Below are positions 4,853 to 49,084 of a stretch of 64,000 nt of DNA, one piece after another. Each line of letters opens with the position of its first letter. Positions within the stretch are counted from its first letter, which is position 1. A model generated the notes under the pieces. That model saw nothing but the letters and a program-made list of their open reading frames with translations, was not told the DNA's origin and ran no database searches. Made by a program: the position numbers and the translations under genes. The DNA comes from Undaria pinnatifida (taxonomy: Eukaryota > Sar > Phaeophyceae > Laminariales > Alariaceae), in the NCBI GenBank assembly GCA_012845835.1, contig JABAKD010000023.1, forward strand, positions 13,098,862-13,162,861, given 5' to 3'.

Positions 4853-7800
4853 ACAGAAGCCCATCTCGGGCTACCAACCACAAGTTGGCTCAGACCGAGT
4901 GGCTTTGAAAAACATAGCTGTCCGAAAGTTGGTAAAGGGGAAAATAATAAAAATCGTGGTGAGTTTGACGACGACCCAAGATCTACCACGTTTACTGGCC
5001 GTAAACAACGACTGTTCAGCAGCCGCGTCGTCACCAATGAGTCCTCAAGCAAATCCGTCACCACACGTCACACCTCAAATTGGGCATTCAACTCGCCGAA
5101 ACCCAGGCCACACATGGAATGTGTATTTCAGTACAACAAGCACCCGTAAAACGGAATCATCAACCCCGGACATGCTCTGCCCATACACTGCCTCGGCGAT
5201 GATTCGCCAGCTGCGGCTGCATCAGGAGCTACCAGCGCCCAGCCCAAAACTCGAGGGAAGAAAAGGAGGAATTCAAAACTCAGACAAACAGAATACCAAC
5301 AACTCAAAATCCAAGACCCCCCACAAAACCTCGACATGATAAAAACGAAGCCCATACAGCGTACGAGTCTCCACTTCAGATCCGTCTTCAGTCGCAGCGG
5401 CTCAAGCTCTTTTCGCAGCACGGCCGTGGGGCCACAAAACACGCGGGCATCGGCTCCGAGGTGCTTTCCGCCTCTTCCGGCCCTTCCCAGGCCACCTTGA
5501 CGACAAACTCGTCGTCCCCACCGAGTTGCGGTCGCGGCAAGATTCGGCCGCACTCCACGGTAGGCGACTGCGTTCAGTTGGGGGCTTCGCCCGCACCACT
5601 CTTGACCTTGAATGAAACCGGACCGCCGCAGGCTTCTTGCATGCAGGGTGGTTACCCAACAACGGCCGGCAGAACAAGTCAACGTTAAGTGCGAAAACCG
5701 ATGTCGCGCAGGATCATGGCGCATTTCGGCGGGGTGCCATGGTCAACAGCGTTATCGACAGCCGTTTGCAACACGCCCACACGATCCCGCATTTCCATCT
5801 CAGACCTTTAGAGTATCATCGGTCGCTGAGACGGCAGCGTCAGTGCGACCTCACCGTCCACGTCGCCTGACCCGTCGCCGTCGCGCACGAATGCTGTGAC
5901 AGCCATCGCTGCTCGCAGCAAAGCACCAGCGTCGGGCTCGCCCACATGAATAGCCGTATGCTCAATCCAATGGCCACCTTGACGCCCTTGTACCTTCAGT
6001 ACAGAGGCCTTGAGCTGCGCCATGACGTCGACGCCGAGCTCATCTCCCAGCGTCTTCCACTCGGCGATAACCACATCCCCTCTCCGAGGGAGTACGATAA
6101 ACGGAAGGGTAAATTGGACTGGTCCCCATGGCGAAACAGTCGTTAAGCCGAGCGGACACGATGGCGTGTCAACATCACATTGCCGGCCCAACGACGTCAT
6201 CACACGCGCATGCCCAACAAACGCCTGTGTTAACGCGGTTAGCGTCATCCCCGGCGGTCTCATCGGGGCCGGTATCAGCTCATCGGACATTGCAGTGGTG
6301 CTTGAACCAAAATCCATGAGCACCTTGACCTCAGCAGCCGCGGAAGAACCGGGAACAGCAAGGCGCCCGTGGAGAGGCTGGGTCAGGCCCTGAACATGCT
6401 GTGTGATCTCTACCGGATCCACAATCGTGTCATCACATCTGCCATGCTGCACGTCCGCGACACGTGCGGAATAAAATGTGATGGAATCTCCCTGTCACTG
6501 CTGTGAAGCGGTTGCCCCTGGCTGCACCGGACCAGAGTGAAGAGTTGGTTTTGCATTCTGTGGCCTAGCGCTTTGGGAATCCTGGTTCTGCACCGTCTCG
6601 GTGAGCAAGTTTGCACTGGTGGCATTTTTTCCCTCGGCACGCGAATACAGACGTAGTCATCGTCATACTGCATAGACGCTTCAGGCTCAACAGGGTCGGT
6701 CTTGGTAACCACCGATTTTGAGGCGGTCTGGTACCCACTAGAGCTCGAGATGCAGGGGGAATCCCACTTGTCTTGCTCCACGGGCGTGCTGAGCGGGACC
6801 GTGTGCGGAGTGCTGCTGCTGTGTAGGGGTCTGGCCGTGGCTCTGGCCATGGACGCCTTACCCCGCCTTAATCTGGTGACTTTGGAGGCAGTCCCACTGC
6901 TCGTGTCTCTGCATGCCACGTCCCAAACATTCGTTGTTGTCGTACCGACGATCCCGCTCTGCCTTCACACCAGCAGCCTTGGCATTCTCGCGCGAGTCGT
7001 GCAAATCAGCAATCCCGTGCGTCTTGGTCCTCGCAGCAGGCATCGACCTAGCGTCACGCCGTTTTGCTGTTCGTCAACGTTCAGCATCTTTGGCCTCGAC
7101 TACAGCTTTGTCCCCCCCGTTGCTGCTTGGCAATAATGTTGAACAACGCGCAAGGGTCATCCGTCACGAAAACGAAACGCCTCTTGCTTTCCACCTTGCG
7201 GCGAAACTCGAGTGGCTCGATTTCCGCCGCTTTCGCCTCGACCAGCACCTTGCCATGCCTGAGCGTGTAATCCCGAACGTCGGGCTTCACCGCCTCGGTG
7301 AGCCCGCTGTCAGCGACGTATTTCCGCAGGGCACGCTTTTTTTTTGTGAACACCCTGTTATCCACCGGCACGCTGGCATCGACCTTCAGCTTACGGAATA
7401 TCTGGCGGCCAAAATCCACATCACTCATCTACCGCATGTAAACGTCAGCAAACCGTTTGATCTCATGCATTACCTCATCCTCGGAGAGGTCGACCAGGGA
7501 TTTGCCGACGTTGAACCGATCAGTCACATTCATTTGGGTCGCCGACCGAATCTACCAGCTCTCGCCTCCTCGGCAGCACCCTGTCTCCTCCACCAACGTT
7601 TGTGATATGCATCTGTTGCTCGCACTCCGAGTACGCATCAAGAAATTCGCGCATACCGTCGAAGGTAACCACATCACCAACCAGGCTAGGCGGCCTGTTT
7701 CCTCCTACCGCCACCTTGGCTCGGCCTCCACCTCTCGGGTCGCCCCAACTTGCAGAATGGACTCCGCCAGCGTCATGCGCTCGCGCTCCTCTTGCTGCTA

Positions 7801-11353: not shown

Positions 11354-12354
11354 ACTATTATGCGAAATATTTTCAGCGATTATTTCCCGCTTTAACAGGG
11401 ATCTCCGACGCCAAAACTAAAAACCATCCACTATGGGAGCAGAAATCATCGTTATTTCTGGGTTCAGAAATAATCGACGCCAGAAATCAGCGGATTTGGT
11501 GATTTCTGAGCCCAGAAATGCCAGCTCTTCAAACCCCTCAGAACTGGGATTAATTGACTCTGGGATACTTTTTATTTCCTTTTCCACACACATCTACTTT
11601 TCAGCTTCTCACGTGTCGTCCCTTTCTCCCCCCCCGGTTCTTGCCTTCAACATTTATCACGTATAGGGTTCACAGCGATCCCAATGTTGGTCGATTTTTC
11701 ATCGAGCGTTGCTAACTCACGCTCTCGCGCTTTCCGCAAGTCAATTTGTGCGGAAGAAAAAGTCCCCACGAATTTATGCGAACATGCACTCGGGGGGATT
11801 CGAACTCACGAAACTGACCTATACCGGGTTCGAGGACAATCTGATACGCCACCTGGGCGACCGGCTGTGGGGCGATACTACCTCGTACCAAGTGTCGCAT
11901 GTCACCACACTGCCGGAACTTTACCTGGTATGATACCTGTCTGCTGTACACGTCACCCATCACCTACCACAAAGAATCACAAAGACACCCACGACAGCAT
12001 ACCGCCCTTGTTGTGTGCGAGACAGAGCTTCGTCCTCACACAAACGCGACAGCAACAGCACCACCACCATCGAAACCACCACAGGCACACCACACCACCA
12101 CGGCAGCCGCAGCACAGCAGCAGCACAGCAGAAGAGGCGGTGGTGACCTAACGTCGTCGGCGACAGTGTACGCGCCAGATTTCAAAAATAAAGGAAAACG
12201 GCAAAACAAGACCTACCAATTCAAAATAAAACCACTTACTTTCTAAAAATCAGAAGCCTTAAAGGACGCCCCTATTTCTGTTGCAGATATTTCTGGAGCC
12301 TTAAAACTTCAGTACAAAAGAAAATCGCAAGAAATAATCGATCAAAAAAATAGT
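11354..12354 (+). mobile_element. Element D carrying a SINE-1 insertion
   Basis: Ends are ACTATT and AATAGT. Apart from positions 11570-11873 it is collinear with 3332-3996 on the opposite strand, sharing GAAATCAGCGGATTTGGTG, the CAG-rich part and GGTGACCTAACGTCGTCGG. It interrupts a family E copy, so it inserted after that E copy was in place. I recognise no coding sequence. Confidence 0.6.
11570..11873 (-). mobile_element. SINE-1, full length, with target duplication
   Basis: This is a 304-bp element. On the minus strand the 5' part is tRNA-like, with a B-box-like GAGTTCGAATCCCCC. It is followed by a tRNA-unrelated body and an A-rich 3' end. It is flanked by GATACT at 11564-11569 and 11874-11879. 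The second D copy (3332-3996) has a single GATACT at the matching point, so both the empty site and the 6-bp duplication are visible. Retroposition by a LINE partner is the known mechanism for such elements; the partner is not seen here. Confidence 0.8.
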
Positions 12355-13182
12355 AGGCCTAAGGGGGTAAATCTGACGGTTTTGGAGATCGTACAACCAG
12401 TGAAGAGAGGGCGGAGCGTTCGAGGGCGTGGGGATGGTGATGTGGGCGGGGGGCGAAAGTTTTTTTTGCACAACGTCTTTAAGTCGCACAAATGTAGGCG
12501 TTTGCTATACGCGTGATGCCAGGTCTAGGGTGATCGTGCGGGTGGTGGGGAAGGAGGGGGCGTTGGGGCGCAGGGGGGTGGGGGTAAATTGCAGCAGCGG
12601 CATGGATGGCTCTAGAAAGATGACGAGTTGATATCAAGTGCGTGGAGGTGTTTATTACTTGATTTCGATGTTGGGTGGGGGGTTTGAGCAACAGGGGGCG
12701 GGAAATAAAAAAACAAGAAAAAAGAAGAAGGGAAAAGAAAAAAAAATAGGGGGGGGGGGTGGGGGTGAAGGGTTTTGATGAGGTTTTGGTCACTTATAAT
12801 ATAAAAATACAGTCGAGCTGTGAGATCGAAGATTTTGTTGAAAGTCATCTTCTCAATCACATAGTTGAAATACCAACGTACCAGGTACGACAACACAACA
12901 AAGCAAGCAGGTATTAAAAAAAGAAAATATCGAGAAAAAGATGAAAAAAAACTTAGCGTTGATGCTCTTAAATTGGGTATCGTACGTACACAAAGGCAAA
13001 CTTTTTGCAGGGTCAGAAGTGTCACCGTCGGTACCGCAGTCTAACCGCACCTACTGATGGCTTTGTGGTCGAAATATAGGAAGTTCGTAGCATGGGATAT
13101 TTCGACCAGCGTCGAACAGGAGAGGAGAGGGGTGTTGACCTCTTACAAGTAGTGTTGTATTGTTGGGGTACTTTTTGCTTAC

Positions 13183-13629
13183 CTCCACGTCGAAATCATC
13201 CACACGTTCATCGAACCACTGCTGCAGCCGATACGGCCAAGCGCACTCATTGCCCTTCTTTCGTTGAGGAGTCACGCACTGATGGCCATAGGTCACGCTG
13301 CCACCCAAGACCACCACCTTCAAGGTCCCCCTATCTCGTGCCCGCTGGAAGGCCCGGTGCATGCCGAGATCGCTGGTGGGGTACCTATTCGCTGAACGCA
13401 CAAACATCTCATCCGTGAGAGGGTATGCCTCAAACTGAAGAGGATCTGGATGGAAGCAGCCTAGCTCGTGACGGCCGTCTGTTTTCCAGCATGGTGGCTC
13501 TTGTTCATCGAATTGAATGCCTAGCTCCGGGGTTTTGGCAGTGTCAACTTGTTTGGTTGACAAGGCTACGCTGGCGACAACGACGGCTCCCAGAATGAGA
13601 GGCGCCACGGCCGATGCCAGCAGTCGCAT
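13183..13629 (-). CDS. SGNH/GDSL-hydrolase-like protein, first exon fragment
   Basis: I chose the ATG at 13629 because it begins a good signal anchor (MRLLASAVAPLILGAVVVASVAL). The frame gives 149 codons. After a luminal stretch with CWKTDGRHELGCF comes LKVVVLGGSVTYGHQC near residues 108-123, which matches block I of SGNH hydrolases (GxSxTxG, with the nucleophile Ser), then CAWPYRLQQWFDERVDDFDVE. The frame stops at a GTAAGC donor at 13182-13177, in phase 0. Later blocks (Gly, Asn, the DxxH) would be in further exons, which I cannot find down to the family E copy. The gene may have a long intron or be cut. An upstream exon is possible, since TTTCTCCCAGCAG just before the start looks like an acceptor. 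The substrate cannot be told; an extracellular or Golgi glycan/ester role is inference. Confidence 0.5.
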
Positions 13630-14031
13630 CGCCAGCTCCTTCCTGCTGGGAGAAAGTAGAAGAGGAATATTGCACGGGTTGTGTGAAGGCAGGTGTCTCT
13701 GTGTTTGTGCTGTGTACTGGACTACACAGCATTCGGAGCAACACGGAACACACACATTGATTGGTGGTACTTATTAGGCTTACCCCATAAGTGTGCCACA
13801 AATTCAAAGTAATTTCTAGCTGAAAGCGAGGGTCAGAAACGGTCACGAATGCTCAGAAAAAGAGGGACATAACAAAAGGACCATCTCCACTAGATTTTGA
13901 AAAAAAAATATGTCCAAACACGTCAGCTGTGAGTTCGATAGAATTCAGCGACTTGATGTCGATACACATGCAATCTCCGTGGTACATACACCTGATTTTG
14001 ACTACGCATCATCATTATTGTCGTGGGCAGC

Positions 14032-14115
14032 TGTTAAGGTATTAGTGGGGTATTAGTCCGTTTGACCACTTGCAACTGGTTAACCAATAGCTTACCCAAA
14101 CTAAGCCTTATAACA
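14032..14115 (-). mobile_element. Solo LTR of the TRIM family
   Basis: This 84-bp repeat begins TGTTAAGG and ends ATAACA, like the TRIM ends at 18.3 and 37.4 kb. It is flanked by CAGC at 14028-14031 and 14116-14119, a 4-bp target duplication. With no internal region, it is best read as the product of recombination between the two LTRs of one insertion. Confidence 0.8.
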
Positions 14116-14284
14116 CAGCACACAAACGTGATAGAGTTCCCCTGAAAATTTCATTCATGTCTAGACTACTGTTTCTTTGTTTGTTTCTGTGCGTCCCATA
14201 CAATATCTTCGCGCTCCTCTTGTGCATTCTTCCAGTACTAACTCAGATCCGGGGTACACGTAGCGGGCCCTTCTTCCCTCTCCC

Positions 14285-14626: not shown

Positions 14627-14991
<365 letters not shown>

Positions 14992-14992
14992 A

Positions 14993-17994: not shown

Positions 17995-18177
17995 TGGCAC
18001 ACGCATACATCACAGCTGACGAAATTCATGCTTCCACCAGAAACATATAAAAGTGAAATCGGGAGTCAGTCTACGATGTGCCAGGTCCATACTGGTGCAT
18101 ACGTCTCACTACTGGCGCCTGAACAAACCGACTACACTGCTTGCCACCCAAGATAGACTACGACGTATACATATATA
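17995..18177 (-). mobile_element. Family A copy, part left of a family E insertion
   Basis: It matches 20930-21080 (ATCACAGCTGACG, AACATATAAAAGTGAAATCG, TTGCCACCCAAG). It is interrupted at ATATATA (18171-18177) by family E and continues after 19379. The intact order is visible in the copy at 20801-21225. Confidence 0.65.
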
Positions 18178-18305
18178 CACGCACAGGATATCACCTCATT
18201 ATCTTTCGAGAGCCATCCATGCCGCTGTGTTTCCCCCCTCCCCCCCCCCCCCACGCCTCGAACGCCCCCTTCTTCCCCATCACCCGCACCTTCGCCTAGA
18301 CCTAG

Positions 18306-18679
18306 TGTTAAGGAATTTAGTGGGGTATTAGTCCGTTTGACCACTTGCAAAAGGTTAACCAATAGCTTACACAAACTAAGCCTTATAACACTCTCCCCCC
18401 CTGAAACGGCGGGATAGCAGGTCGGCCGAATATACGGGCGGACCTGTCAATTACCCAAGCCGTTTCATTTCCTGGGGTTACCGGGGAGAGTATTTTCCAA
18501 GTTCGACATGGGGAAATCTGAAAAGTTTATTATTGTGTATGGTGGGGATCGAACCCACGACCCAAAAAACCCATGGTCTGTCGACGACGCCATTTGTTAA
18601 GGAATTTAGTGGGGTATTAGTCCGTTTGACAACTTGCAAAAGGTTAACCAATAGCTTACACAAACTAAGCCTTATAACA
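18306..18679 (-). mobile_element. TRIM with tRNA-like interior, looks whole
   Basis: This is a 374-bp element with two 85-bp terminal repeats (18306-18390 and 18595-18679) that differ at about one position, so the insertion is recent. The ends are TGTTA...TAACA. It is flanked by CTAG at 18302-18305 and 18680-18683, and the empty site is visible in the family E copy near 22355. On the minus strand a purine tract (GGGGGGGAGAG) precedes the 3' repeat. The interior has a T-arm-like hairpin GTGGG/CCCAC around TTCGATC. It has no coding capacity, so it depends on an LTR element elsewhere for its enzymes. Confidence 0.85.
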
Positions 18680-18718
18680 CTAGCACCACACGTATAACAA
18701 ACCCCTCACCTAAAGCCC

Positions 18719-18772
18719 TCCCCCCCCCCCCCGCCCCCCCCCCCCGCCCCCCCCCCCCCCCCCTCCCCCCCC
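18719..18772 (+). repeat. Poly-C tract inside family E
   Basis: A nearly pure C run of about 50 bp. Other such runs are at 18925-18985, 19070-19085, 22148-22178, 22605-22660 and 22740-22760, all at the same block boundaries of family E. Confidence 0.85.
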
Positions 18773-19378
18773 AACCCATCCCAACCCCACCTTCTCGAAC
18801 ACTCCACCCTCTCTTTACTCACTGATTGTACGACTTACCCCAGGATATACATGATAAACTGATGTATTATTTCCAAAAATGTCACAGTTATCTCCTCAAA
18901 ACAATGTATAGTTTCCAGGCACATATTGAGCTGCCCCCCCCCCCCCCCGCCCCAACTCCCCCCCCCGCCCCAACTCCCCCCCCCCCGCCCCCAATAATAT
19001 ACTGGTGCCAAAACCGTCAGATTTATCCCCTCGAAAGGATTTATAGCTTACAGGCACAAATTGCCCCTTTCCCCCCCCCCCCCGCCCCCCTCCAAACCCG
19101 CTCGCTTTTGATCAAAACCAGGCCCCCCTCTCCCTTCACAGCTGTCAGATTTTGTCCCCCTCACAAACGGGTTTTATAGTTTCCGCGCACAGACTGACTA
19201 AAATCATCCTGTTGACCCTGATAGCTACACTGTAGTTGTAAGGGGAGTCGCCGACCTATATTCTTAATGAGGACACACAACTCGTAATGCGCGCGATCGG
19301 AGTATCACAAACAGCTTGCAAAGATGAGTTTCGACGAAATCTTCGATCTCACAGCTGGAGTGTATTTTAATTTTTATA

Positions 19379-19600
19379 ATATATATTGCACGTAGTACCC
19401 ATCACTACGCATACGCACGACAGACGAAAGTCATTTTTATAGAAGAAACAAAGAAAAAAAAGGGGATTATGGAAAGAGAAGAAAAAATAAAGACATGGAA
19501 GCGAGAAAAACCGAAAAAAGTTGCTGATGAAGAAGAAAAGACAAGAAAAGGAAGAAAATACAAGACAAGAGGAAGCAAGGAGAGTAAGGAGAAAAATAAA
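19379..19600 (-). mobile_element. Family A copy, part right of the family E insertion
   Basis: It continues the copy that starts at 17995: GCACGTAGTACC, GCATACGCACGACAG, then the purine-rich stretch that is the complement of the T/C interior (about 19440-19600). The right edge is not sharp. Confidence 0.6.
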
Positions 19601-21994: not shown

Positions 21995-23125
21995 CGAGTT
22001 GATACATATATTTTGAACGCCCCCTCTTTTCCGACCACCTGCACGATCGCCTAGACCTAGCACCACGCGTATAACAAGCTGCTACATATCTTTGATCTCA
22101 CAGCCGAAGTGTATTTGAATATTATTTGTGACCTAAACCTCCTAAAAAATCTCCCCCCCCCCCCCCCCCCCCCCCCTCTTGCTCTCCCTTACTCAAACGC
22201 CCCACCAAATATCGAAATCCGCCACATTAATAAACACTTCACGCACAGGATATCACCTCATTATCTTTCGAGAGCCATCCATGCCGCTGTGCCCCCCCCC
22301 CCCCCCCCCCGCCTCGAACGCCCCCTTCTTCCCCATCACCCGCACCATCGCCTAGACCTAGCACCACACGTATAACAAACCCCTCACATAAAGCCCTTCC
22401 TCCCCCCCGACCCCCCCCGCCCCCACACCCCCCACCTCCCCCCCAACCCATCCCAACCCCACCCCCTCGAACACTCCACCCTCTCTTTACTGACTGATTG
22501 TACGGCTTACCCCAGGATATACGTGATAAACTGATGTATTATTTCCAAAACCGTCACATTTATCCCCTCAAAATAATGTATAGTTTCCAGGCACATATTG
22601 AGCTGCCCCCCCCGCCCCTCCCCCCCCCCCCCCCCCGCCCCAACCACCCCCCCCCCGCCCCCAATAATATACTGGTGCCAAAACCGTCAGATTTTATCCC
22701 TCGAAAGGATTCATTGCTTACATGCACAAATTGCCCCCTTCCCCCCCCCCCCCCCCCCTCCAAACCCGCTCGCTCTTGATCAAAACCAGGCCCCCACGTC
22801 CTTCAAAACTCCGCCCCACCCCTCTCACCGGTTATTCGACTTACAAGATTCACTTGATAAAAGGATACATTTCCCTTCACAGCTGTCAGATTTTGTCCCC
22901 CTCAGAAACGGGTTTTATAGTTTCCGCGCACAGACTGACTAAAATCATCCTGTTGACCCTGATAGCTACACTGTAGTTGCAAGGGGAGTCGCCGACCTAT
23001 ATCCCTAATGAGGACACAGAACTCGTAATGCGCGCGATCGGAGTATCACACACAGCTTGCAATGATGAGTTTCGACGAAATCTTCGATCTCACAGCTGGA
23101 GTGTATTTTCATTTTTTATAATATA
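21995..23125 (+). mobile_element. Family E, longest uninterrupted copy
   Basis: It includes a terminal-type block near 22084-22135, then blocks separated by C-tracts: ...GCCACATTAATAAACACTTC, the GGATATCACCTCATTATC block, CGCCTAGACCTAGCACCAC (empty TRIM site), GATATACGTGATAAACTG and GTCGCCGACC. The constant 3' block ends near 23125. Several blocks are repeats of one another, for example CCGTCACATTTATCCC and CCGTCAGATTTTATCCC. No protein is recognised. Confidence 0.65.
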
Positions 23126-24108
23126 TTTTGAGCGGGATATTTTGAGCGGGACATGGTCAACCAGCTACATTTGCACAGGTTTTTGCAGGGGACAGTGAGG
23201 GGGGTGGAGGACAAAGTACTGGGCGCAAATATTATCAGAGATTATATAGTCCACATATATAGTATGGCAGCGGGGGGGGGGGGCAGGGACGGGGAGTGGA
23301 CGGACGTGGGGAAGCGGGGCGGGGGGGGCTGGGGGGGTAGATGAGTTTGTATATACTATTCGGGAGGTGGGGGTAGGATAGGGTGTGTGTAGAGAAGCTG
23401 ATATATTTTTTATTGACTCATTTATGTATATATTTGGTGTGAGGTCTTGGTCAAACTGAGATGCACATATATTGTTTGGCAGGAGAGGGGGGTGGGAGGA
23501 GAGAGCAGGGGCAGGGGGGGCGGGGGGAGGGACGACGACCGGGAAAAAGAAGGGAGGGAGGACGGTGGAAGAGGAGTTCATATATATATTTTTGGCGGGG
23601 CGGGGTGGGAGAAGAGAGGGGGCTTGGGGAGGAGAGGGGTTTCACATATATTGCCGTCGGAGTATCACACACAGCTTGCAAAGATGAGTCTCGACAAAAT
23701 CTTCGATCTCACAGGTGGAATGTATTTCTATTTTATGAGATAATGTATTGTTTTCTTCGTGGGGATTGGTCAACCGCATACATACATATAATTTTCAGCA
23801 GGAGAGGGGGGAAGGGGCGCGGGGGGGTGTACCGGGGGAGGAGGGGGAGGGCGATGGGGGGGGGGAAGCGTGGGAAAGGATTTCATATATTTATTATTTC
23901 GGCGGGGCGAGGTGGGGGAGGAGATGCGGGTGAGTAGGAGAGGGGTTTACGTATAGAATATATTGTAATATATATATGAATTCCTCGCCTCCCTCCCCCC
24001 TCCTCACCCCCCCCCCCACCCCCTACCCCCACCCCCACCCCCCACCCCTACCCCCCCCTGTCCTCTGCCAAAAACCTTCATGTAAAAATCCGTTTGACAA
24101 CTCCCCCC
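23126..24108. repeat. G/C-tract-rich stretch with a short family E 3' end
   Basis: Long G-rich blocks (23265-23340, 23480-23640, 23810-23935) alternate with TATATA segments. A C-rich block lies at 23980-24060. A 5'-truncated family E terminal block is at about 23645-23735 (plus). The open frames here are Gly/Arg-rich or Pro-rich artefacts of the tracts. Confidence 0.55.
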
Positions 24109-24424
24109 GAAATAAATTTCTGTGTTTTTCACACACATATACTTTCCAGCTTCTGGACAAGTCGTGGTCACATGTGTCGTCGCGTCTCGTCCGCTGCTCT
24201 CGCCTTCAAATTTTATCGCGCATGGGGTTCAGCAGTCCCACTGCTTGTCGATTTTTCATCGAGTGTTGCTAGCTCACTCTTTCGCGCTCTCCGCAAGTTA
24301 ATTTGTGCGCGAGAAAAAGTCCCCACGGATATATACGAGTATGCACTCGGGGGGATTCGAACTCACGAAACTGACCAATACCAGAGTCGAGGATAACCTG
24401 ATACGCCACCGGGGCGACTGGCTA
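24109..24424 (-). mobile_element. SINE-1, near full length
   Basis: It matches 11570-11873 along its length (TCGATTTTTCATCGAG, GGGGGATTCGAACTCACG, GATACGCCACC). The minus-strand B-box-like element is GAGTTCGAATCC. The target duplication was not certain. Confidence 0.7.
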
Positions 24425-29370: not shown

Positions 29371-30140
29371 ATCCTTAATGAGGACACACAACTCGTAATG
29401 CGATTATAAAAATTAAAATACACTCCAGCTGTGAGATCGAAGATTTCGTCGAAACTCATCTTTGCAAGCTGTGTGTGATACTCCGATCGCGCGTATTACG
29501 AGTTGTGTGTCCTCATTAAGGATATAGGTCGGCGACTCCCCTTGCAACTACAGTGTAGCTATCAGGGTCAACAGGGTGATGTTAGGCAGTCTGTGCGCGG
29601 AAACTAAAAAACCCGTTTCTGAGGGGAACACAATCTGACAGCTGTGGAAGGAAATGCATCAGTTTATCAAGTGAATCCTGTAAGTCGTATAACTGGTGAG
29701 AGGAGGGCGGAGTTTTTATGGGCGTGAGGGCTCGGGTTTGATCAAAAGGGAGCGGGGTTGGATGGGGGGGGAAAGGGAAGGGCGGGGCAAGTCAATTTGT
29801 GCGTGGAAACTATACATCCTTCAAAGGGATAAATCTTACGGTTTTGGGGGAAAAAAATGAATAAATGAAAATGCACCTGTTTATCATGGGGGGGGGTGGT
29901 TGGAGCGGGGGCGGGGCGGGTGGAGCAGCTTAATCTGTGCGTGGAAACTATACATTATTTTAAGGGGATAAATGTGCCGGGTTTTGGAAAGAATGCGCCA
30001 GTTTATCATATATATCCTGTAAGTCGTACAACCAGTGAGTAGAGGGCGGAGTGTTCGAGGGGGTGGGGGTGGGGTTGGGTGGGGAGGCGGGTGGTGGGGG
30101 AGGGGGGAGTTTTTTTTCGTCAGGTTTAGCTCACATAATA
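29371..30140 (-). mobile_element. Family E copy with an inverted terminal piece
   Basis: The main part runs on the minus strand from the constant block at 29408 through the usual blocks to about 30140. Just outside its 3' end, 29371-29402 is a plus-strand piece of the same family. It forms a perfect inverted repeat of about 31 bp with 29495-29526, around a loop of some 90 bp. Confidence 0.65.
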
Positions 30141-36870: not shown

Positions 36871-37402
36871 TAGTAGGTCCTGTATCGGACGTAGTGGGAT
36901 GTTCTGCAAGAAGACCTGGACATACAAATTATTATCCAACTAACTCGGGTTCAACCAGGCCCAACGGCATTGCCTTTGGTAGACCGTGCAGAGCGTACAG
37001 ACGCCAGCCGGCAAGATGATCTACTGGTGTAGACTATACGATTTACACATGATGTCATCCGGATGTCCCCAGAAAGGTTCAGGTAACGAAGCGAGCGAAG
37101 AATCATTGATGCCGTGTCGGCCGTGTGAAACATTCCCTTACGTCGGGGGCTTTGTAAGAAATCGGGCAGCTAGCTGAATCAGATGTATGTGCTCAGGTAT
37201 GTGTGCAGGACACACCACCAGTTCTCAGCCATATCCAGACTGGGCTGCGCACTCTACTGAACACAGCCATGCTATGGTGTCCGTTGCATCTACTTGGGGG
37301 TATGTATGTTATCACAGCAGGGATCAGCCCTTTAAACGGACAGAGAAAACTCGGCAATAGGTAGGCTTTGGTGTACATCGAAGGCGCGAGGTAGACGCCG
37401 TA
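36871..37402. other. No recognised feature
   Basis: No exon or repeat match was seen in the 530 bp before the TRIM. Confidence 0.4.
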
Positions 37403-37813
37403 TGTTTTAAGTCTTAGTTTTGGTAAGCTATTGGTTATCCTTTTGCAAGTGGTCAAACGGACTAATACCCCACTAATACCTTAACAAATGGCCAAACGGA
37501 CTAATACCCCACTAATACCTTAACAAATGGCGTCGTCGACAGACCATGGGTTTTCGGGTCGTGGGTTCGATCCCCACCGTCCACAATAATAAACTTTTCA
37601 GACTTTCCCCATGTCGAACTTGAAAAATACTCTTCCTGGTATCCCCAGGGAATGAAACGGCTTGGGTAAATGACAGGTCCGCCCGTGTATCCGGCCGACC
37701 TGCTATCCCGCCGTTTTAGGGGGGGAGAGTGTTATAAGGCTTAGTTTGGGTAAGCTATTGGTTAACCTATTGCAAGTGGTCAAACGGACTAATACCCCAC
37801 TAATACCTTAACA
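37403..37813 (+). mobile_element. TRIM with tRNA-like interior, looks whole
   Basis: Terminal repeats are 37403-37486 and 37730-37813 (84 bp each, TGTT...AACA), flanked by CGTA on both sides (37399-37402 and 37814-37817). The end of the left repeat is duplicated once more (37487-37525). The interior starts AATGGCGTCGTCGACAG and has a perfect T-arm-like hairpin at 37561-37577 (GTGGG, loop TTCGATC, CCCAC). It ends with a purine tract AGGGGGGGAGAG directly before the right repeat. It has no coding capacity. The repeats differ moderately, so it is older than the 18.3-kb copy. Confidence 0.8.
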
Positions 37814-38843
37814 CGTACCCGCCAGCGAGCACCGACAAGCCTTTAAGGAGGTGGCAGCGGGGGCGGAAATGGGGGCTTGCACGCTGGTTCAGGATTAGCA
37901 CGTGTTGTGTTTGGTTGACACGCGCTCGCTGAGATAGAGGTAGCACGATTTCGGCGGATCGTTTTCGTCAATAACCGAGCGACAGTCAACCCACAACCAT
38001 TTTTGTGTGTTTCATCTAATGGTAGAGTGAGTAAGTGGGGTGCTAACCCTGAAAGGTTCATTGTGTGAGTTATCGTGTATCTGCTGACGACGTGGGGACC
38101 GCAAGGAACCAAAAGGGGGGCAACTCTAAAGAAGCAACAGCGGGGCTCCTCCACCTAGAAAACTAGTTCGCACTTATTTTCTTTTATTGTACTACATACA
38201 GCAGTTTTCGTTGAGTACCTAGGCCACACGATGTTACACGCATGATGCTTCACAGGCAGGCGTCGTCTGTAAGATGGATGAGTTTAAGGGAATACATATA
38301 GACTAGTCTATGCACGTCTTTGCTCGATGTTGTTCGTCGTGTAGTCTAGCACTTTTGATTTCCCGAGAATCTGAATGAGTTTCCGGTTTCGAGGTGTGTA
38401 GTCTAGAGTTTTACAAGTTAACATTATTACTTAAGTCGGGTTCCGAGCTGAAGCCTAATATTTTTCACGAGTTTGTCAGAACTCGGCAAGGACAAAGTTT
38501 CGAGCTCTGAAAATTTGCACACATTTCCGCTAGGTCATCATGGGGATCACGAAAATATATACTCCGGAGTATTTTTTTTCATGTTTTTGGCCATCATCGT
38601 GGTTGTGAGTTACTCACGAATAAGTAGGTAAAACTGAGGGAAAGTCGCATCCGCGGCCCCCCCGAGGAAATTTCAAACCCCTCCGAATCGTACCAAGTGT
38701 TCAGATCAATGAGGTAATTTTGGGGTGGAGATCACGAGTCTGTCGTTAGATTTTTGATCTGGATCGATTTGACTTTGATACAGCTCCGCGACGTTATTCA
38801 TGTGCGAAAAGTGGGCGGAAAGCTGAGATTTACTTGGGAATAC
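37814..38843. other. Mostly unassigned; TAGTCTA motifs
   Basis: TAGACTAGTCTA near 38300 and GTAGTCTAG near 38340 and 38399 belong to the palindrome family. ATACTCCGGAGTAT near 38560 is a perfect palindrome, nearly repeated at 58033. No gene is supported. Confidence 0.4.
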
Positions 38844-39047
38844 TGTTAAGATACGGCCTCGAAAGGCCTGTAGGTATCCGAATTTGAGATCAATTGGATG
38901 GGTTTCGTATGATAAGGTTGGCGGTTTATATTCGGGGAAGTTAGGAATTAGATCGGAGGCGCGCGCCTCCGATCTCAGAAGCTATCCCGGGCTCTGATGG
39001 AAACGAATAAAGCTACATCTCTACGAAGGAACGAAAGTGAGTACTCT
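38844..39047 (+). repeat. 204-bp direct repeat, left copy, with 24-bp palindrome
   Basis: It begins TGTTAAGATACGG and is almost identical to 39483-39686 (about five differences over 204 bp). The 24 bp at 38953-38976 are a perfect palindrome centred on GGCGCGCC. A second hairpin, GGCCT/AGGCC, lies near the start. Confidence 0.8.
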
Positions 39048-39482
39048 AACCCCTCGCCTTGCCGATGGCCCGCGGGAGGTTTTTTGCATGACTTCTCCCT
39101 TGTGTTAGCGCCTGTGTTCCTCTCCATATCGACGAGGGCTCGCCTCGCCATAGTACTTTTTCTGTGGTTGGTTTACCGCAGAGCCTTTACTGCCCCCCCC
39201 GCCACACCGGCGGCATGCGGCAGGTTCTAGAGCCTTTTCTGCCCCCCCCGCCACACCGGCGGCATGCGGCTGGTTTTTGATGGGTGACTATTGCCTTGCT
39301 GTAGGGTCTGCTTTTCTTTCTACTGCTTTTCTTCGCGTGTTCCTGGCTCCATAGCCAGACGGTTAGAGGTGTGGGAGTGGGGTTTGAGGAGCCGCATCTT
39401 CGACTCATGGTCTAGTTCGTAGAACCGGAGTTTCCCCGAATCTCCCATATTTCTGCATATGCGACTCATCAGGGTGGGCTAG
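39048..39482 (+). other. Sequence between the 204-bp repeats
   Basis: It holds a two-copy tandem repeat of about 50 bp (about 39180-39275, with GCCACACCGGCGGCATGCGG in each). At 39356-39400 there is a weak tRNA-like stretch, TAGCCAGACGGTTAGAG followed by CTTCGACTC. No protein was recognised. Confidence 0.45.
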
Positions 39483-39686
39483 TGTTAAGATACGGCCTCG
39501 AAAGGCCTGTAGGTATCCGAATTTGAGATCATTTGGATGGGTTTCGTATGATAAGGTTGGCGGTTTAAATTCGGGGAAGTTAGGAATTAGATCGGAGGCA
39601 CGCGCCTCCGATCTCAGAAGCTATCCCGGGCTCTGGTGGAAACGAATATAGCTACATCTCTACGAAGGAACGAAAGTGAGTACTCT
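39483..39686 (+). repeat. 204-bp direct repeat, right copy
   Basis: Partner of 38844-39047, in the same orientation, 639 bp away. The palindrome has one mismatched centre base here. The repeats could be LTR-like ends of a small element or a recent segmental duplication. The outer end lacks the usual CA and no target duplication was seen. Confidence 0.75.
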
Positions 39687-40325: not shown

Positions 40326-40740
40326 TATTATAAGACTTGTATTTTTGATTGGGTAGACCATTGGATAGTAGTGTTTGGCAAGTAGTCAAACGTGGACTAT
40401 TACCCTCTGACTCCATAACAAATGGCGTCGTCGACAGACGGTGGGTTTCTGGATCGTTGGTTCGAATCCTACCATCCACAAGCAATACAAGATTCAACAT
40501 TTTTTTTTCAGTTGCCGTTTGTCGAACTTTGAAAATCTCCCCTATATACCACATGGAAATCAAACGGCTTGGATATTTACACGTCCGCCGGTATATAATA
40601 TCCGACCGACCGGCAACCCCGACGTTTCATGGGGGGGCGAGTGTTATGAGTAGAGTATAATAAGGCTTAGGTTAATTAGGCAATTAATTGGTAAACGTTT
40701 CGAAAGTGGTCAAATTACTCTATTGCCCTTAAATTCCTCA
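40326..40740 (+). mobile_element. Old diverged TRIM with tRNA-like interior
   Basis: Terminal repeats are about 40326-40420 and 40642-40740. Between them, AATGGCGTCGTCGACAGAC follows the left repeat, and GGGGGGGCGAG precedes the right one. The B-box-like GGTTCGAATCC at 40459-40469 is an exact match to the RNA polymerase III consensus, although the terminal repeats have diverged greatly. This is the oldest of the four TRIM loci in the window. Confidence 0.7.
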
Positions 40741-41861
40741 AGATCACTACCATGGTCCTCCGTTATAGCATGATAACTACATACAACTATTTCGTATAAC
40801 GTACAGGACACCTACTATTACTGCTACTGTAACATGCAACGGGGCCATCTTGTGCGAACACCAAGCTGACGTCTACGACGACAGGGTGCATGACCAAAAG
40901 TAATCAGGAGCATTCACATGTATGTGATAAAGTTACGCCCGCTCATGATTGAAAATTCCCTTCTTAAACAGCGATCGTAGTTCACATTTGCCGACTCCAG
41001 GAAGACCTTTTTATGAGGGTGATACACATACCAGAAACGCATCGAGCATAGCTCCATAAACATACCACCCCGTCGGCTTCCCTCTCCCGCGCCCTGCTCT
41101 AGGCACCCCTTTAGGAGGATACCTTTCGGAGGCGTTTTTCGGCAGTGTCTCGGGGTTTCTCTCGCGAGTGACTCTCCCCTGTCCCTTTTCGGTCTTCTAA
41201 AGCCTTCGTGCTGCTTTGGGTTTGTTTGCGATGTACATACATCAGAAATAGAACGGTTAGCTACGGTATTACGGTGCGGTGCGCCAAATAAATCGCCCGA
41301 CCGTGTGCGAGTACGTCAGATCCAGTTGGGAAAAAGGAGGTACTACCAACAACCGTAGATTCGCTATTTGGTCCAATGAGTGTTGGAACTGTAACAATAC
41401 CGTGATAAACACCCCCGGTGACACCAGGTAAGATTCTACGAACGAGGTGCACGAATCTTGATACTTGGGCTGCTAGCTCGAGGGGTTCTATATCTCACTG
41501 AGTAGCAATGTTCGAGTAAAACAAATGTGCTCCCTGATGAACAACGACATGGTCTAGGCACGCGTGCAATATATGTGTAACAATAAAAAGTTGCAACAAC
41601 ACAAGAAGAACATCGTTTTCACGAATTTGGTTTTTTAAGTAGCTCCGTCGTTGAAAAATATTACGCCAGAACGTGCATCAATTGGCACACCTGCGTATAC
41701 TACCATCGTAGCCCGTTTTCGACAGCTTTAAGATCGAGACATTCACCTGTCACCGTGATGGTCATTTCTAGCGGGAATGGCCGTGTGTCGTGAATTCAAC
41801 CGAACTAACAAGAGAAGCACGGGGCACAACTTATGGGTCTAAGGACGCATGCTACGCTGGA

Positions 41862-48505: not shown

Positions 48506-48734
48506 TGCTATGATAGAGGTGCCCGACTCTTTTTGCCTAGCCCATCACTTTCGGAACTTAAGACACGTCCTTCTTGACCCAGAAACTGGTTCGATAAAAC
48601 GTATAGCTGCTGACGTGTGGATGAAAAACCCTGTGGCCTAGGTGCACAACGAGAATCACGAAACAAAACACAGCATTTTTCCGACGATTTTTGGTTGAGA
48701 AGCGGTCGTCACCGTCACGACCCAGAGTACCATA
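48506..48734 (+). repeat. Module M2, cut by SINE-1
   Basis: GATAGAGGTGCCCGACTC, GAACTTAAGACACGTCC, GGCCTAGGTGCACAACGAG and TTTCCGACGATTTTTGG are in the M2 order. It stops at 48734 where SINE-1 begins. Confidence 0.55.
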
Positions 48735-49047
48735 GCCGGTCGCCACGGTGGCGTTTTAGGTTATCCTCGAGCCCGGTACAGGTCAGCTTCGTGCGTTCGA
48801 GCCCCGCCGAGTGCATAGTCTCGTATAGATCTGTTGGGAATTTTTCATGTGCACAAATTGACTTGCGGAAAGCGCGAGAGCGCGAGTTAGCAACAATCGA
48901 TGGAACATCGAGAGCAGCAGTGGGATTGCAAAACCATCGTATGCGAAATGAAAAATTGAAGGCAAGAACCGGGGGGAAGAAGGGACGAGACCTGTGACCA
49001 CGGCTTGTCCACAAGCTGGGAAATAAAAGCGTGAGAAAAAAAAAGAA
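48735..49047 (+). mobile_element. SINE-1, plus strand, near full length
   Basis: It starts GCCGGTCGCCACGGTGGCG (A-box-like) with B-box-like GCGTTCGAGCCCCGCC about 45 bp on. The body has GACTTGCGGAAAGCGCGAG and CAACAATCGATGGAAC, and it ends with CAAGCTGGGAAATAAAAGC and an A-run. Confidence 0.75.
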
Positions 49048-49084
49048 AGGGAGGGATAATATGTATTTTTACGGCATATTTTTT

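Follow-up and report, generated by a model that had tools for sequence, protein, structure and literature searches.

A TRIM family of Undaria pinnatifida, probably new, with a probably tRNA-derived fragment beside its candidate primer-binding site

The 64-kb stretch of Undaria pinnatifida DNA analysed here, referred to as the window, contains a TRIM with a T-arm fragment adjoining its candidate primer-binding site (PBS) and an otherwise ordinary appearance. It probably represents a new TRIM family with a probably tRNA-derived fragment beside the PBS; no earlier description of the family was found in literature searches. The family in the window consists of three full copies (A, B and C) and one solo LTR (Table 1), and no further copies were detected with BLAST at E up to 0.01 or with an nhmmer profile at E up to 1. 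As there are only three full copies and two of them are alike, every statement on conservation given below is weak. We consider it likely that the elements use a tRNA primer at the PBS and that the T-arm fragment is a PBS-side signal or a relic and not a replicative Pol III promoter.

Table 1. Positions of the TRIM copies, their parts and the empty site in the window.
Feature	Position	Strand	Remarks
Element A, whole	37403-37813	+	411 bp; LTRs TGTT...AACA
A, 5' LTR	37403-37486	+	84 bp; TGTT...AACA
A, A-box-like site TGGTCAAACGG in 5' LTR	37450-37460	+	8/8 specified bases
A, 39-bp tandem duplication of the LTR 3' part	37487-37525	+	at the LTR/PBS junction
A, second A-box-like site TGGCCAAACGG	37489-37499	+	within the tandem duplication
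A, presumed PBS TGGCGTCGTCGACAGACC	37528-37545	+	by position and TGG start; "tRNA 5' half" of the preliminary description
A, T-arm-like hairpin GTGGG-TTCGATC-CCCAC	37561-37577	+	B-box motif inside at 37564-37574
A, purine tract	37719-37729	+	ahead of the 3' LTR
A, 3' LTR	37730-37813	+	84 bp; TSD CGTA at 37399-37402 and 37814-37817
Element B, whole	18306-18679	-	374 bp; TSD CTAG at 18302-18305 and 18680-18683
B, LTRs	18306-18390 and 18595-18679	-	85 bp; TGTT...AACA
B, candidate PBS	18575-18592	-	
B, T arm	18542-18558	-	
B, six-T run	18564-18569	-	sense strand; between PBS and B box
B, purine tract	18391-18401	-	
Empty site of B	22202-22572 (about)	+	uninterrupted repeat copy
Element C, whole	40327-40745	+	diverged (~70% alike); ends approximate; no TSD seen
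C, candidate PBS	40423-40440	+	
C, B box	40459-40469	+	
C, nine-T run	40500-40508	+	downstream of the B box
Solo LTR	14032-14115	-	84 bp; TSD CAGC at 14028-14031 and 14116-14119

The LTR pairs, target-site duplications (TSDs), empty site, purine tract and solo LTR give the family the anatomy of a TRIM. Direct terminal repeats at three loci, a 4-bp target duplication where intact and a purine tract before the 3' repeat had been claimed in the preliminary description, and all of these were recovered. The LTR pairs of A and B measured 84/84 and 85/85 bp, respectively, and the lengths of A and B, 411 and 374 bp, are below 1 kb. Duplications of 4 bp were found at all three loci with clean ends (CGTA at A, CTAG at B and CAGC at the solo LTR); none was seen at C, the ends of which are uncertain. 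A purine tract closes the interior; it reads GGGGGGGAGAG in elements A and B, and GGGGGGGCGAG in C. No coding capacity was seen in the copies. The solo LTR was absent from the earlier list and is an addition to it. The 5' and 3' LTRs of A differ at 5 positions over 84 bp and those of B at 1 position over 85 bp, B having the most alike LTRs among the copies. The tandem duplication in A reads CAAATGG versus CAAGTGG at its junction, and its origin would suit slippage in reverse transcription.

The flanks of B, put together with a single CTAG, were aligned with the uninterrupted repeat copy at 88% (337/383). The insertion point in this sister repeat reads GACCTAGCACC, where CTAG is present once. 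The empty sister site with a single CTAG indicates that B moved as one unit, including the T-arm fragment. The repeat family concerned has long C runs and is found at 18144-19388 (the copy which hosts and is interrupted by B), 22202-23130 and 29403-30107 and in shorter pieces, the longest pieces being 75-84% alike across 700 bases.

The candidate PBS, TGGCGTCGTCGAC, starts 2 nt past the 5' LTR, or in A past the duplicated piece of the LTR. Its first bases, TGG, are complementary to the CCA end of a tRNA. Together with four further bases TGGCGTCGTCGAC is exact in 3/3 copies, and the longest interior run unchanged in C, 19 nt, contains it. TGGCGTCGTCGACAGAC is exact in all three copies, and a search of the window with up to 3 mismatches resulted in only these 3 matches, compared with 0.13 expected. 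In C, 1 of the 18 PBS bases was changed versus 48/171 (A-C) and 41/170 (B-C) in the rest of the interior with the B box left out. By its position, TGG start and conservation, TGGCGTCGTCGAC thus sits and behaves like a PBS and is taken as a candidate site. The same bases had been read as a tRNA 5' half. Scored against the A-box consensus TRGYNNARNNGG, TGGCGTCGTCGAC matches 6/8 specified bases, a score equalled or beaten by 38-45% of shuffles of the 72 upstream bases (38.5, 42.5 and 44.9%). At shuffle level, the score was rejected as support for a tRNA and for an A box at the PBS, and the reading of the interior as starting like the 5' half of a tRNA was not sustained.

The complement of the PBS, GUCGACGACGCCA, is compatible with CCA preceded by a G discriminator; its end, ...GACGCCA, presumably resembles that of some eukaryotic tRNA-Asn. 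A primer paired along all 18 nt would meet, opposite tRNA position 61, a base that does not suit the usual C61. A possible kinship of the 3' flank of the T arm with the acceptor strand implied by the PBS, considered by eye, was dropped as weak. The literature search with the PBS letters yielded one unrelated paper.

The B-box/T-arm motif is real and poorly explained by chance alone. The B box GGTTCGANNCC was matched in 3/3 copies, including the most diverged one, where it had been said to be still exact, and these are its only 3 matches in the window, against 0.60 expected on both strands. For one interior and the sense strand, the chance expectation is about 0.001 before allowing for motif choice; the three copies are related and hence are not independent matches. 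The T-arm-like hairpin noted earlier in the interior was also verified, with 5/5 stem pairs and a 7-nt loop in A and B and, from the alignment, 4/5 pairs in C, where T-T replaces a G-C pair. When C was compared with A or B, 0/9 specified B-box bases and both free positions were changed. At the rate of the interior, nine unchanged bases have P values of 0.05 and 0.08; of the equally shaped windows that avoid the PBS, 5/172 and 10/171 were just as unchanged, the B box being one of them. The invariant run of the B box is 7 nt, while runs of 11, 10 and 7 nt occur elsewhere in the interior outside the PBS, the two longer ones being AAACGGCTTGG and TGTCGAACTT. Judged by these comparisons, the B box appears conserved barely more than its surroundings, if at all.

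No tRNA was found in the window by ARAGORN, nor by Rfam at gathering scores. Under permissive Rfam settings, A gave two sub-threshold matches to tmRNA models anchored on the T arm (E 0.012 and 0.078), a match between the opposite strand of the T-arm region and a plastid model (E 4.3), and an unrelated match (E 0.54); B gave two sub-threshold tmRNA matches, also anchored on the T arm (E 0.095 and 1.5), and C gave none. With ARAGORN set to 80% of its threshold, no match was obtained with A and B and one with C. The latter, a tRNA-Trp call, was rejected: it extends into the LTR, and shuffles do likewise, those keeping the T arm resulting in sense-strand matches in 123, 216 and 262 of 501 parsed blocks (25-52%). 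At 60% of the threshold one antisense match each was obtained in A and B and two matches in C, and 178/200 shuffles of A also matched. A full tRNA hidden in the element was not found by ARAGORN or Rfam, the relaxed matches being reproduced by shuffles. Apart from the T arm, no tRNA-like part of the element could be demonstrated with these two programs.

Exact PBS and LTR patterns resulted in 0 matches in viral contigs and 0 in prokaryote genome contigs, collections from which the window's own genome was possibly excluded. A looser pattern matched five viral contigs, three of them near-identical; by eye none was TRIM-like around the match, and the matches were ascribed to chance. No related autonomous element was found in the window by DNA comparison, and a Pfam scan of 15 of the 98 ORFs (at least 110 aa) for retrotransposon domains gave one weak match, unrelated to retrotransposons. 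The ORF at 5808-6494 (-) contains LMDFGSST, which by eye is like an aspartyl protease active site, and perhaps belongs to a decayed retroelement; it had no Pfam match. The ORF at 13051-13770 (-) weakly matches Non-GDSL lipase-like, with E 0.0014 and a score under the curated cut-off; it has 18 database matches, itself among them.

Other repeats were also recorded in the window. A SINE-like family of ~300 bp with a tRNA-type head is located at 1-122, 11580-11870 and 24117-24424 (all -) and at 48733-49048 (+). Its B box AGTTCGAATCC was matched in the 11.6-kb and 24.4-kb copies; ARAGORN at 80% gave a sense-strand match in the head of 3/4 copies, a count without shuffle control, and in the one copy scanned with Rfam no tRNA was found. 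Two direct repeats of 207 bp (38841-39047 and 39480-39686), 97% alike and with starts 639 bp apart, may be a second small element or a duplication. Each holds a long palindrome, GATCGGAGGCGCGCGCCTCCGATC in the first and a version altered at a single base in the second. The arms do not end in CA, a target duplication was not seen, and permissive Rfam gave one match (E 3.4). An ACA trinucleotide repeat of ~122 units occupies 14627-14992.

Pol III transcription of the family and its being a SINE chimera are unproven. In the preliminary description, the interior was likened to the head of a tRNA-derived SINE, which suggested Pol III transcription or a chimera of SINE and LTR modes; in such a chimera, the PBS would supply the A box and the B box would follow it. 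The TRIM-type nature and a B-box/T-arm motif beyond chance have stood, whereas the tRNA 5' half and the SINE head with an A box at the PBS have not. The reality of the B box and the presence in the same window of SINE-like copies with a tRNA-type head, whose B-box context TCGTGAGTTCGA by eye resembles the TRIM's TCGTGGGTTCGA, are consistent with such a chimera. However, the A box is at shuffle level and accounted for by the PBS, six T precede the B box in B, and ARAGORN and Rfam revealed no tRNA signal beyond the T arm. In addition, transcription from a type 2 promoter begins some 10-20 bp before the A box. An A box at the PBS would therefore place the RNA start at the very end of the 5' LTR, and the RNA would miss most of this LTR, including the R region, which is needed for the first strand transfer. 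The chimera is thus considered very improbable. A promoter split between the A-box-like TGGTCAAACGG in the LTR (base 48) and the B box in the interior would start near LTR base 30, keep the R region and give a replicable RNA, that is, a TRIMp3 with a divided promoter; the B box lies 76-114 bp past the A box, or 75 bp from the duplicated site of A. This layout is favoured by the 8/8 match that A and C have in their 5' LTRs (the site of C lies at LTR base 57, its loop is two bases longer and it contains a permitted R change), by the 7/8 match in the 5' LTR of B with an intact site in its 3' LTR, and by the B box kept in 3/3 copies. On the other hand, in a scan where loop length was allowed to vary, 43, 45 and 47 of 1000 shuffled upstream segments (4.3-4.7%) had a perfect A box and 538, 488 and 485 of 1000 had one of 7/8; as 7/8 is reached by about half of the shuffles, the site of B says nothing, and in the 3' LTR of C the GG of the site is lost in the alignment. 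The T runs, six T between the PBS and the B box in B and nine T behind it in C, also speak against a Pol III promoter, A having runs of only four. In budding yeast, Pol III is hardly paused by T4 and is blocked by runs of at least nine T, T6 being its commonest terminator though an incompletely efficient one (PMC9278858); in S. pombe, termination is about 90% at five T and next to nil at four (PMC4982682). The run lengths were judged by these yeast rules, from which those of the host may differ, and the A-box and T-run tests were chosen, as the spacing was examined, after the sequence had been seen. A promoter split across the LTR boundary is not described in the accessible portions of PMC10886601 and PMC6934838 or in the titles and the openings of abstracts from the literature searches, and we regard it as improbable in this family.

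A role of the T arm as RNA structure, in which a hairpin with a palindromic loop beside the PBS would serve dimerization, packaging or primer placement and would resemble a tRNA through mimicry or convergence, is rather unlikely. The loop contains the palindrome TCGA (by eye; TTCGAA in C), the PBS contains the six-base palindrome GTCGAC in 3/3 copies, and precedents exist: as stated in the available text of PMC5454406 and PMC9315659, Ty1 RNA dimerization is started by kissing loops and LysRS binds beside the HIV-1 PBS. In contrast, the minimum-energy fold contains the T-arm hairpin in A only and not in B or C, the 60-nt stretches of the three copies fold no better than shuffles (z 1.33, 0.30 and -0.96), the sole varying stem pair is broken in C and not compensated, and the six-base loop palindrome is limited to C. 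It is possible, though doubtful, that the T arm is a chance occurrence or a dead relic with no role at all. The invariant runs found elsewhere outside the PBS, which equal or exceed that of the B box, agree with this, but the low chance expectation per interior, stated before allowing for motif choice, and the fact that C, the most diverged copy, retains each of the nine specified bases do not. In favour of a TRIM with a tRNA primer at the PBS were counted the LTR pairs, the TSDs, the empty site, the purine tract, the solo LTR and the position, TGG start and conservation of the PBS, as well as the A-box score at shuffle level, the lack of tRNA matches beyond the T arm and the T runs of B and C. 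Counted against it were the misfit at tRNA position 61 under full pairing, the nine unchanged bases in C, which hint at a kept B box, the expectation of ~0.001 per interior, the T runs of A, which at four are weak in yeasts, and the better A-box match in the LTR.

For such a tRNA-primed TRIM, the following course of replication may be proposed. TATAAG is present at LTR bases 4-9 in 4/5 LTRs of A, B and the solo copy, and the RNA would arise from the 5' LTR, Pol II being the simplest candidate and this motif having a putative role. The non-coding element would be moved by the proteins of an autonomous LTR retrotransposon, none of which was seen in the window. A host tRNA would prime reverse transcription at TGGCGTCGTCGAC, the plus strand would begin at the purine tract, and integration would yield the 4-bp duplications, which were observed together with the empty site. 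The T-arm/B-box fragment is situated ~15 nt past the PBS in tRNA-sense orientation. It probably derives from a tRNA, either through a reverse transcriptase that jumped to a packaged tRNA or by way of a tRNA-derived SINE; if used, it would be a PBS-side RNA signal, and otherwise a relic.

The family resembles known TRIMs: it is shorter than 1 kb, has short direct LTRs, a motif in PBS position, a purine tract, TSDs and a solo LTR, and shows no coding capacity. It differs from them in carrying a T-arm/B-box fragment just past the candidate PBS and in its LTRs of 84-85 bp, which are slightly under the usual 100-250 bp. With tRNA-derived SINEs the B box is shared, whereas the LTRs, the fixed 4-bp TSD and the purine tract are not; a SINE head has A and B boxes, while here only the B box was found and the A box is at shuffle level. 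TRIMs with a tRNA promoter are an idea already in print: in the available text of Kojima 2024 (PMC10886601), Helenus comprises TRIMs with tRNA-like boxes A and B in their LTRs from fungi, animals and a plant, with lengths of 311-1263 bp and, in animals, 4-bp TSDs, and TRIMs with Pol III promoters are named TRIMp3, Cassandra being called the only validated case. The present family is similar to Helenus in its probably tRNA-derived sequence, its length and, as in animal Helenus, its 4-bp TSDs; in contrast, its B box is interior, which places it outside Helenus as defined, no A box is established and the LTR holds an A-box-like site only. Cassandra also has a Pol III-type motif inside a TRIM, but as described in the accessible part of PMC10886601 that motif is 5S rRNA, lies in the LTR and has its transcription shown, none of which applies here. 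In the interiors of bivalve TRIMs, short tRNA similarities were reported in the available portion of PMC6934838, in which no canonical PBS is identified; short tRNA-similar stretches are common to both, whereas in the present family the motif in PBS position is the best-kept piece.

The TRIM family adds to a known kind of element, and it is the T-arm/B-box fragment beside the PBS that could matter. If constrained, this fragment would be either a Pol III promoter laid out unlike those of Cassandra and Helenus or a tRNA-like element by the PBS.
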